The position numbers were made by a program, and so were the translations under genes. From Natrononativus amylolyticus (GTDB taxonomy: Archaea > Halobacteriota > Halobacteria > Halobacteriales > Natrialbaceae), in assembly GCF_024362525.1 (NCBI RefSeq), contig NZ_CP101458.1, forward strand, positions 434,001 to 498,000: DNA of 64,000 nucleotides. Direction: 5' to 3'. Position 1 is the first letter of the stretch. Every line of letters begins with the position of its first letter. Below are positions 47,679-51,081 of the stretch, piece by piece. Below the pieces are notes generated by a model. It was not told the origin of the DNA. It was given only the letters and a program-made list of their open reading frames with translations, and searched no databases.

Positions 47679-48374
47679 TCACTCGAGCAGCACCCACTCG
47701 CCGGGCGCGCTCATCTCGATCACCTCGCGGCGCTCCATCTCGGTCAGCACCTCCGTGAGCCGGTTGGGCTGGGCGATCTCCATCTCGATGCGCTCGACGT
47801 TGTGAAACTCGTTCAGGTAGTGGCGCACGTCGGCCTTCGAGAACGAGTCCTGATCGGCCTGTTCCATCACGCCGGAGATGAGGTCGATCATGTCCTCGAT
47901 GAAGTTCCAGGGGTAGACGATCCAGGCCCACTCCTCGAGGCGCTCGCCGATGTAGTCGGGTTCGAACTCGCTGGTCTGGAGGAGCTGGAGCGTCGCGGTC
48001 CGGACCGACCCCGCGTTGCGCTCCTCGACGTACTCCTGAGCGCGCTTGATCGAGCCCCCGGTGTCGGCGATGTCGTCGATGATCAGCACGTCCTTTCCCT
48101 CGACGCTCCCCTCGGGCATCGGGTACCGAACCGTCGGCTCGCCGGATTTCTGGGCGGTGCCGACGTAGTGTTCCATCTTCAGACTCGCCAGATCGTCCAT
48201 CCCGAGGAAGTCACAGATACACCGGCCGGCGAACCAGCCGCCGCGGGCGAGCGCGACGATCACGTCCGGTTCGAAGTCGTCCCGGCGGACGTCGTCGCTG
48301 ACGTCCCGACAGAGGCTGTAAATGTACTCCCAGTTGGTAATCGTACAGTTGAAGTCGTCCGGTAGGTCGGACAT
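47679..48374 (-). CDS. Phosphoribosyltransferase with C-terminal winged-helix-like extension
   Basis: The 231-residue protein has a type I PRTase domain with the PRPP loop DVLIIDDIADTGGS (95-108) and EPDVIVALARGGWFAGRCICDFLG. It would be a purine (xanthine/hypoxanthine-like) salvage enzyme. After about residue 165, a domain FSKADVRHYLNEFHNVERIEMEIAQPNRLTEVLTEMERREVIEM looks like a winged helix. Some PRTases of this kind are transcription regulators, so an enzymatic or a PRPP-sensing role is open. It is convergent with the MATE gene (19 bases between stops). Confidence 0.85.
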   Translation of the reverse strand: MSDLPDDFNCTITNWEYIYSLCRDVSDDVRRDDFEPDVIVALARGGWFAGRCICDFLGMDDLASLKMEHYVGTAQKSGEPTVRYPMPEGSVEGKDVLIIDDIADTGGSIKRAQEYVEERNAGSVRTATLQLLQTSEFEPDYIGERLEEWAWIVYPWNFIEDMIDLISGVMEQADQDSFSKADVRHYLNEFHNVERIEMEIAQPNRLTEVLTEMERREVIEMSAPGEWVLLE

Positions 48375-48518
48375 TGCTGGTGGCCACCTACGTCGACCGA
48401 GGCGAGCGCCCACCTTAAGTGGGGTGAAACGCGGTACCGACGGTTCGTTCTACGCGATAGCCACATACACCTATCGACCGTCGGCTATTACCTCTCGGTA
48501 TTCAGGTGAATCACTACC

Positions 48519-49835
48519 ATGCCAACGACCCGAGACTACGAGTACCTCCTCGAGTGTGCGAACGTGATCGGCGTCGACTACAACGAGGCGGAGAACCGGG
48601 TGAAGGTGTTCGTCTCACAGAAGATGCCGCCCGAGACGCTCGCGGACGAGGACGACGTGAAAAAGCGCGTACAGGAGACCGACGCAGACGTAACCGTCGA
48701 CGTCGTCGACGCCGGCTACGACGACGAGCGAGCGGGGTACGAGCCGCTGTCGACGCTCGAGGTGATTCCCGAGGCGCTCGAGGGACGCGGGGAGCGCCAC
48801 CGGCCGGTCCCCGCGGGCGTGAGCGAGATCAATGCGATCTCGACGGCGGGGACGGGCGGCCCCTACCCGGCTCGCGTCACGGCGGACGCGACCGACGAGG
48901 CGAGCGGGGCGGTCTGGAGTGACGCCGTCGGGGCCGACGACCTCGTTCGGCTGTCGAACAACCACGTCTACGCCCGCTCGAACGAGGCCGACCTCGGCGA
49001 GCCGATCCTCCAGCCGTCGCCCCAGGACGGCGGCGAGAGCGACGACGAAGTCGGGGCACTGGTCGGCTACGTTCCCATCGACGACGGGGTCCGGGTCGAC
49101 GTCGCCGCACGATCCGTCGACCGCGACCGGGAGAGCGACCGGTACCTCGAACTCGAGGACGAGTGGCCGACGGGGGTTCGCCGCGACGGCTACGAGGAAC
49201 TGCGCGAGGAGACGGTCACGAAGACCGGGCGAACGACGGGCGTGACGAGCGCGACGGTCGAGGCGACGAGCGCGAGCGTCAACGTCGACTTCGGCGAGGG
49301 GGGAACGATCACCCTCCGCGATCAGCTGATAACCGGCTACATGTCCGAACCCGGCGACAGCGGCTCCGCGGTCTTCCTCGAGGACGGCGAACTCGTGGGG
49401 CTGCTGTTCGCCGGCTCGACCGAACAGACGATCTGCAACCGGATCGCGAACGTCGAGGCGGATCTCGGCGTCGAAATCCTCACCGAGGAGCCCGACGACG
49501 GCAACGGCGACGGCGGAGGCGACCGGGAGCCGCCGGTGTACACGACCACCTTCGAGCGCGCCCTCGAGGTGGACCTCGAGGGCGCGAGCCTCGACCTGGA
49601 GTCGGTGACGTTCGGCGGCCGACCGCAGCCGGGAGCAACGGTTCCGCTGCGTATCGCGGTCGTCGCGAGCGAACCCGGCAGCTACTGGGTCGACGTCGAC
49701 GGCGACCGCGAGCGATTCGAGATCGGCGGCGAGTCGTCGGACGACCTGGGGCACACGGTGACGGCCTCGGCGGCCGTCCCCGAGGACGCCGCGGGAACGC
49801 TCTCCGTGTCGATCGCGGGCGGGCGACTCGAGTAG
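48519..49835 (+). CDS. Cytoplasmic trypsin-like (chymotrypsin-fold) serine protease, 438 aa
   Basis: The serine protease triad can be assigned as His149 (LSNNHVYAR), Asp194 (VRVDVAARS) and Ser281 (EPGDSGSAVF). There is no signal peptide. The first about 95 residues form a separate alpha-beta domain (YEYLLECANVIGVDYNEAENRVKVFVSQKM, PPET, VDVVDAGYD). After residue 325 an acidic Gly-rich linker leads to a beta-rich C-terminal domain (TTTFERALEVDLEGASLDLESVTFGG). I see similarity in style to plant NAL1-like and bacterial trypsin-like proteases but no exact match. The substrate is unknown. Confidence 0.75.
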   Translation: MPTTRDYEYLLECANVIGVDYNEAENRVKVFVSQKMPPETLADEDDVKKRVQETDADVTVDVVDAGYDDERAGYEPLSTLEVIPEALEGRGERHRPVPAGVSEINAISTAGTGGPYPARVTADATDEASGAVWSDAVGADDLVRLSNNHVYARSNEADLGEPILQPSPQDGGESDDEVGALVGYVPIDDGVRVDVAARSVDRDRESDRYLELEDEWPTGVRRDGYEELREETVTKTGRTTGVTSATVEATSASVNVDFGEGGTITLRDQLITGYMSEPGDSGSAVFLEDGELVGLLFAGSTEQTICNRIANVEADLGVEILTEEPDDGNGDGGGDREPPVYTTTFERALEVDLEGASLDLESVTFGGRPQPGATVPLRIAVVASEPGSYWVDVDGDRERFEIGGESSDDLGHTVTASAAVPEDAAGTLSVSIAGGRLE

Positions 49836-49845
49836 CGGTTTCGGC

Positions 49846-50085
49846 TCACTCCTCGAGCGTTCGCGCCAGCGCGATGTACGCGAGCCCCAGCGCGAAGCTC
49901 ACCAGCGCGGCGGCGAGGACGACGAGCGCGGCGAGCGAGCTCTCGAAGAACCGACTCGCGATGCCGTAGATCACGAGCGCGACGAGCGGCGCGGCACCGA
50001 AGCCGACGAAGAGGCCGCCGGCGAACCAGGCCTGGCCGGCGGTGCGCTCGAGTTCGTCGCCGGTCGGCCCGTCTGCGCCGTGCAT
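49846..50085 (-). CDS. Small two-helix membrane protein, 79 aa
   Basis: Two spans (WFAGGLFVGFGAAPLVALVIYGIA and SLAALVVLAAALVSFALGLAYIAL) follow a short acidic start and end in a four-residue tail. There is no motif. It faces the protease gene (convergent, 10 bases between stops) and is divergent from the PhzF gene. Function is unknown. Confidence 0.7.
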   Translation of the reverse strand: MHGADGPTGDELERTAGQAWFAGGLFVGFGAAPLVALVIYGIASRFFESSLAALVVLAAALVSFALGLAYIALARTLEE

Positions 50086-50184: not shown

Positions 50185-51081
50185 ATGGAGACGATTCGCG
50201 TCCTGCAGGTCGACGCCTTCACGGACGAACCGCTGGCCGGAAACGCCGCCGGCGTCGTTCCCGACGCCGACGACCTCGCGCCCGACCAGATGCGGTCGAT
50301 CGCCCGCGAACTCGCCCTGAGCGAGACGGCCTTTCTCCGCTCGAGTTCCGACGCGGAGTACGGAATCCGCTACTTCACGCCCACCCAGGAGGTCGACCTC
50401 TGCGGGCACGCGACGATCGGGTCGTTCTCGCACCTCCACGAGGAGGGCCTCGAGGCCGGAACGACGACCCTCGAGACGAACGTCGGCGTCCTCGAGATCG
50501 ACGTCGAGTCCGACGGCACCGTCTGGATGACCCAGGACGACCCCGACATTCGGGAGGTCGACCTCGACTACGGCGAGGTCGCCGACGCCCTCGGCGTCGA
50601 GGTGACGGGGCTCGAGGGCGTCGGCGCCGACCTTCCGCTCGCGGTGTCCTCGACCGGCCTGCCGTTTCTGATGGTGCCCATCACCTACCTGCGGGACGTC
50701 GGTAACGCCGTCCCCGACATGGCGGCCGTCGAGGCGCTCACCGACGCGGTCGAGGCGACCGGTCTCTACCTGTTCACCTTCGACACGCTCGCCGCGGAGT
50801 CGACGCTCCACGGGCGGATGTTCGCCCCCGGCGCCGGCGTTCCGGAGGACCCGGTCACCGGAACCGCGAGCGGCGCGGTCGGGGCCTACCTCGAGCGCTA
50901 CGGCGCGCTCGATCCGTTCCCCGAGGAGTGTCGACTCGAGCAGGGCCACTACGTCGACCGCCCCGGAACGGTGCGGGTCAGGATCGACGACGCGGTTCGG
51001 GTCGGCGGTCGGGGCGTCACCGCACTCGACGGCACGCTCGTCGTGCCCGAGGACGAAGACGACGGCATTCTCGAGGCCTAA
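50185..51081 (+). CDS. PhzF-family isomerase-like protein
   Basis: The 298-residue protein has a diaminopimelate-epimerase-like fold. It starts METIRVLQVDAFTDEPLAGNAAGVV and has the catalytic-type Glu in SETAFL, the motif RYFTPTQEVDLCGHATIGS and the late GAGVPEDPVTGTASGAVGAYL. PhzF acts in phenazine synthesis in some bacteria; here a general isomerase role is more likely. ATG 50185 is well placed with respect to family starts. It stands just upstream of the ppsA promoter region. Confidence 0.88.
   Translation: METIRVLQVDAFTDEPLAGNAAGVVPDADDLAPDQMRSIARELALSETAFLRSSSDAEYGIRYFTPTQEVDLCGHATIGSFSHLHEEGLEAGTTTLETNVGVLEIDVESDGTVWMTQDDPDIREVDLDYGEVADALGVEVTGLEGVGADLPLAVSSTGLPFLMVPITYLRDVGNAVPDMAAVEALTDAVEATGLYLFTFDTLAAESTLHGRMFAPGAGVPEDPVTGTASGAVGAYLERYGALDPFPEECRLEQGHYVDRPGTVRVRIDDAVRVGGRGVTALDGTLVVPEDEDDGILEA

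Follow-up and report, generated by a model that had tools for sequence, protein, structure and literature searches.

The gene examined here lies in the window, a 64,000-nucleotide stretch of the Natrononativus amylolyticus genome, and encodes a distant relative of NARROW LEAF 1 (NAL1), the rice protease known for its effects on leaf shape and crop yield. The protein is a divergent member of a known superfamily that carries one appended, clade-specific domain. Our preferred reading, which we consider probable, is that it is a cytoplasmic NAL1-related serine endopeptidase with limited substrates, controlled by its N-terminal domain, equipped with an Ig-like domain for docking, and encoded by an accessory gene. 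For haloarchaea, this assigns an unannotated protease to a known superfamily, and an earlier reading as a defense protein loses support. The features on which the analysis rests are collected in Table 1.

Table 1. Coordinates of the protease gene, its parts, its neighbors, and selected relatives. Positions with an L prefix refer to collected loci; all others refer to the window.
Feature	Position	Strand	Basis
NAL1-like serine protease gene, 438 aa	48519..49835	+	open ORF, ATG start, homologues
GGTGA, Shine-Dalgarno-like, 9 nt 5' of ATG	48505..48509	+	read in sequence
N-terminal NAL1_N-type domain, residues 1-66	48519..48716	+	profile search, predicted fold, relatives on PF25608
Chymotrypsin-fold protease domain (predicted), residues 95-321	48801..49481	+	VIA fold rows; PF13365 below cut-off
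Catalytic His149 codon	48963..48965	+	invariant in alignments
Catalytic Asp194 codon	49098..49100	+	invariant in alignments
Catalytic Ser281 codon (GDSGS)	49359..49361	+	invariant in alignments
C-terminal Ig-like beta-sandwich (modeled), residues 357-438	49587..49832	+	structure models, fold searches
Phosphoribosyltransferase PRT (PF00156), divergent core neighbor	47679..48413	-	Pfam, locus comparison
Putative small membrane protein of 79 aa, flanked by protease and PhzF	49846..50085	-	locus comparison
PhzF-like protein (PF02567)	50185..51081	+	Pfam, locus comparison
Free-standing NAL1_N-type examples	L050:8960-9241; L060:7560-7793; L106:9004-9222		partner HMM
Putative serine protease, gene 25-326 of Aeropyrum coil-shaped virus	L167:2971-3951		relative of L058

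Antisense ORFs overlap the protease frame, as is usual in GC-rich DNA, and the homologues match the plus frame. Haloarchaeal homologues are 55-71% identical to the window protein, and dN/dS is below 1 in 24 of 24 comparisons (range 0.08-0.65, from six sequence pairs and four overlapping parts). These two observations identify the ORF as a real gene, and because the ratios of 0.08-0.65 extend across all parts, selection acts on the protein throughout its length. The GGTGA element upstream of the start codon resembles the Shine-Dalgarno consensus. The organism's own genome holds a single copy of the protease.

The initial annotation described a cytoplasmic trypsin-like protease with a complete triad of His149, Asp194, and Ser281. 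That numbering is right. All three residues are invariant in 26 of 26 rows of a haloarchaeal alignment (A1), and likewise across the 107 rows (100 distinct sequences) of a wider alignment that covers archaea and many bacterial phyla. Single-sequence searches with the window protein return weak trypsin-type matches alone, and Pfam gives just protease-type matches, all below cut-off (PF13365, E 1.8e-4). The chymotrypsin fold is supported by the AlphaFold model (pLDDT 82.2, pTM 0.69), for which the VIA rows of streptogrisin and alpha-lytic protease span model residues 95/97 to 321/323. The part borders were corrected to residues ~1-66 for the N-domain, ~95-321 for the protease, 322-356 for the linker, and 357-438 for the C-domain.

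The kinship to plant NAL1 emerges from profiles and folds. When the A1 family profile is compared with the PDB, plant NAL1 structures rank first (E 1.3e-4), followed by streptogrisin-type enzymes, and the NAL1 alignment takes in the N-domain as well as the Ser region. A Foldseek search with the AlphaFold model gives rice NAL1 in every one of the top 32 rows (best E 3.3e-13). The top ten VIA rows are likewise all rice NAL1, with a best Z of 23.6 and an rmsd of 3.9 over 294 aligned residues, pairing model residues 1 to 341 with NAL1 residues 95 to 458. The best non-NAL1 protease reaches a Z of 19.0 and is restricted to model residues 97 to 321. Since non-NAL1 rows align about 183 residues, the remainder of the NAL1 match likely comes largely from the N-domain. 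Pfam already contains the models NAL1_N (PF25608) and Nal1_C (PF25819). The former is matched by 21 of 25 members of the mostly bacterial A5 set and by 9 of 26 A1 members, and relatives L020 and L058 exceed its cut-off; the latter is matched by 10 of 25 A5 and 8 of 26 A1 members (E up to 0.1 for A1). The window protein alone matches neither PF25608 (Pfam at E up to 1) nor PF25819 (E up to 0.1), and for this reason we call it a distant NAL1 relative rather than a member of the curated family. By family profile, relatives, and predicted fold, its N-domain belongs with NAL1_N. Of the two flanking domains first described as unknown, the N-terminal one is thus of NAL1_N type, whereas the C-terminal one still has no sequence family; fold searches lead to NAL1 over the N-domain and protease, and for the C-domain to a generic Ig-like fold only.

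Comparison with characterized proteases sharpens this placement. Plant NAL1 has the same order of an N-domain and a chymotrypsin-fold domain, matches the predicted fold across both, and has the VFVxxK, GR(T/S)(T/S)G, and GDSGS motifs in common with the window family. However, it is only ~19% identical to the window protein, to which the C-terminal Ig-like domain belongs. Bacterial NAL1-like proteases such as L058 and L050 also combine N-domain, protease, triad, and motifs, but are mostly 300-393 aa long, end directly after the protease, and usually have a free-standing NAL1_N-type gene nearby. Streptogrisin and alpha-lytic protease resemble the window protein in the fold of the protease domain (Z about 16-19). 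These enzymes are exported and made with a signal and a prodomain, whereas the window protein has no such signal by hydropathy. HtrA/Deg proteases share the protease fold as well (Z about 12.6-14) but differ in that no PDZ match is found in the window protein (Pfam, E up to 1). In the one literature collection searched, nothing was found in print that links NAL1 with prokaryotes or gene transfer, and searches for NAL1_N, Nal1_C, and the Pfam numbers returned rice work on other subjects only.

Beyond the protease, residues 322-356 form a linker modeled mostly with low confidence, with pLDDT below 50 at residues 324-354. The C-domain is modeled as a six-stranded sandwich. Neither Pfam (at convincing E) nor a sequence search of the PDB yields a family for it, and Foldseek returns nothing at an E of 0.001 or below. 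Its VIA scores (best Z 7.9, transglutaminase 7.5, CARDB 6.8) are within the level that chance can give, and on these models the domain is best called Ig-like, a generic fold. It is limited to one haloarchaeal clade, the close orthologues of the window protein. It is missing from a related protein, L013, whose last residue is 335; a second haloarchaeal group (L018-L029) has different C-termini, and most of the 61 non-haloarchaeal relatives (among the best 80 of at least 531) end directly after the protease. In most pairs, constraint is lowest in the C-domain (dN/dS 0.19-0.65), which would fit docking and also weak constraint.

The cytoplasmic assignment was examined by N-terminal hydropathy. 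Within residues 1-35, the highest 11-residue mean is 1.46, which is not signal-like, and the absence of a signal peptide claimed at the outset agrees with this search. A secreted or surface protease misread as cytoplasmic might be suspected from the D/G-rich linker and from the C-domain, which is of an Ig-like type common on surface proteins. Against this stand the lack of a hydrophobic N-terminus in the window protein and the behavior of its homologues, 3 of 80 of which pass the hydropathy cut (best 80 of at least 531 relatives). We therefore regard secretion as very improbable and retain the cytoplasmic reading.

Relatives occur in 26 of 242 Halobacteria genomes by protein search, so the statement that such proteases are uncommon in archaea holds for haloarchaea. 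A scan of named genomes yielded at least 531 relatives, of which the best 80 (19 haloarchaeal and 61 others) were analyzed. In the tree, the window clade holds together with an SH-aLRT of 100, its stem measuring 2.59 changes per column, and the second haloarchaeal group is separate from it. Deep placement is unsafe because the tree is a quick one with long branches. The very long stem, together with the failure of either NAL1 Pfam model to match, suggests that function may have shifted in the window clade.

The locus itself is metabolic. The neighbors in the window (PNP, MatE, phosphoribosyltransferase, PhzF, and PPDK) have metabolic or transport functions and are kept in related loci. The divergent phosphoribosyltransferase gene (PRT) adjoins the protease in every orthologue locus from L030 to L048 except Halogranum L044 (18 of 19) and at 8 of 8 further loci, which represent 8 of 17 close orthologues in partly overlapping genomes. 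PRT is a core gene (58 of 61 family genomes), but the protease stands beside it in only 11 of the 30 PRT loci examined (30 of 58); the protease is therefore an accessory gene that comes and goes at one set position. PhzF directly follows PRT in L211 and L224, the small membrane protein does so in L203 and L205, and the protease lies several kilobases from PRT in G104. This distribution bears on the idea of a general housekeeping turnover enzyme, with which the breadth of the family would agree. An enzyme confined to 26 of 242 Halobacteria genomes, and dispensable at loci where PRT persists, makes general housekeeping improbable. Two further features of the region were noted. The 79-aa putative membrane protein has similar genes in a few relatives and no Pfam match. 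A conserved block with the consensus CCCCATAAGTGGGCTGAAAC lies in the PRT-protease intergenic region (48365-48518); it adjoins PRT and is probably the PRT promoter. A promoter shared by PRT and the protease was rejected, given that no such block lies by the protease.

The same locus speaks against a part in defense or phage response, which the initial annotation had raised along with regulation. Proteases act in some defense systems, and the accessory distribution of this one would suit an anti-virus or abortive-infection role. Yet the neighborhood comparison across haloarchaea reveals a conserved metabolic locus in which no sensor or effector partner is seen, and PADLOC gives the window protein one match, at chance level (E 0.031) and to the C-domain only. 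A defense island was rejected on these grounds. Moreover, viruses themselves carry relatives, and we consider a defense role extremely improbable. With the bacterial relative L058 as query, the protease turns up in two records of Aeropyrum coil-shaped virus and in one large uncultured phage. The Aeropyrum virus protein is 32.8% identical to L058 over 87% but differs in being viral and on a very long branch. IMG/VR contributes 57 loci with relatives, and the window protein is itself matched by PHROG 20754, "protease" (E 1.8e-36). The neighbors include terminases and an endolysin family, which indicates that some of these contigs are viral. A pattern among the viral neighbors was sought and rejected, the commonest PHROGs families each accounting for 3 of 120 proteins. 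The best viral fold match is BFVD A0A0N9MU75, an unnamed viral protein of 318 aa (E 5.5e-19). On one viral contig (L161:5716-6210), an N-domain match occupies a separate frame that overlaps the protease frame, an arrangement that corresponds to a split gene or a frameshift. Elsewhere (L179:1462-3201), a NAL1-like protease fronts a 1,106-aa ORF (G165); by eye, the parts after the protease are beta-rich and resemble a virus tail protein, and nothing is found for them in Pfam.

These results allow us to propose how the window protein may work as a limited protease. The catalytic unit would be the chymotrypsin-fold domain with His149, Asp194, and Ser281, its activity being suggested by conservation and predicted fold. 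The NAL1_N-type N-domain is kept in the full-length family members examined and most likely governs folding, assembly, or active-site access. Plant NAL1 forms an oligomer, a hexamer, and degrades TOPLESS-type transcriptional corepressors. For maize, REL2 is reported to be degraded by purified ZmNAL1a and to disappear more slowly from extracts treated with PMSF (PMC12915138). By analogy with plant NAL1 and corepressors, the window protease most likely acts on a restricted range of cytoplasmic substrates, and a regulatory role is possible on the same analogy. The Ig-like domain, attached through a flexible acidic linker, is probably a docking site for substrates or partners. Bulk turnover and defense are less favored roles than limited proteolysis.

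A lead that we judge more interesting than the window protease itself is a free-standing copy of the N-domain beside the bacterial enzymes. Such a gene accompanies the protease at 51 of the 61 non-haloarchaeal loci (from the best 80 of at least 531 relatives). A partner HMM was built from 23 small genes near bacterial proteases and run against 20,286 stop-to-stop ORFs of at least 45 aa, taken from the window and every locus collected by that stage. It gives 93 matches at E up to 1e-3: 41 protease ORFs, recognized by their own N-domains, one viral ORF beside a protease, and 51 small ORFs, one per locus in 51 loci. Of these small ORFs, 23 had built the model and 28 are independent of it. Most lie downstream of the protease on the same strand (37, many with a 4-nt overlap); nine are upstream on the same strand, four downstream on the other strand, and one upstream on the other strand. 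Distances from the protease extend to 1.0 kb in L071 and 1.4 kb in L085. Profile-profile comparison of the protease N-domains with the free-standing copies gives a probability of 98.7 (E 3.1e-16), and Pfam NAL1_N matches 6 of 45 copies (best E 2.8e-5). Across 20 whole genomes (E up to 0.001), all matches are either small (70-178 aa) or protease-sized (320-425 aa) frames. Small frames are present in 13 of the 20, including 3 of the 10 with no partner at the locus (L062, L074, and L077); the L074 locus sits at a contig end. Within one order, the domain profile matches 2 of 196 genomes, with the protease beside the domain in both. In one of these two (G317:C12:265537-266423), a single in-frame TAA interrupts the protease, and an intact partner lies 12 nt away. 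The protease search matches four of the 196, two of these being partial matches in larger frames. A conserved wider bacterial neighborhood was rejected, as the commonest Pfam family accounts for 4 of 108 neighbor proteins. Nothing on this neighbor gene was found in print in the one collection searched.

We tentatively suggest, at somewhat below an even chance, that prokaryotic NAL1-like proteases are two-gene systems in which a free N-domain copy regulates in trans, as an inhibitor, assembly cap, or chaperone, and that the window clade lacks the partner and has the Ig-like domain instead. If true, this would give a first handle on the role of the NAL1_N domain, plants included; in the literature searched, no biochemical role for that domain was found stated. 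A simple prokaryotic relative and a recurrent isolated-domain gene make the question testable in vitro. A related alternative casts the N-domain as a pro-domain or inhibitor module like those of alpha-lytic protease or subtilisin: it would aid protease folding and block the enzyme until removed or displaced, with the second copy acting in trans in bacteria. The N-domain precedes the protease throughout, as a pro-domain would, and the frequency of nearby free copies agrees with this account. Against it, none of the 45 copies scanned matches a known prodomain or I9 in Pfam. In addition, 21 of 51 copies have a signal-like N-terminus by hydropathy, against 3 of 80 proteases, so that partner and enzyme may not meet; 17 of these 21 have a Met where the domain begins that might serve as an alternative start. 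We consider a pro-domain rather unlikely, although four haloarchaeal ORFs of 371-440 aa (L180, L181, L184, and L188) also speak for it: the partner profile (A6) matches a segment that, read by eye, precedes serine-protease-like motifs in proteins with export-signal-like starts.

Regulation in trans would not extend to the window clade, as the two-gene reading already allows. The partner gene is present in 0 of 19 haloarchaeal orthologue loci, and the organism's own genome has no free-standing copy, giving partial matches only (E 0.13 and 0.75). The partner profile matches 18 of 232 Halobacteria genomes; most of these matches are partial and short or fall on the N-domains of longer ORFs. A 149-aa haloarchaeal ORF that it matches (L187:1471-1917) may be a free-standing copy, judging from sequence; Pfam finds nothing in this ORF or in those of L179, L180, L181, L184, and L188.
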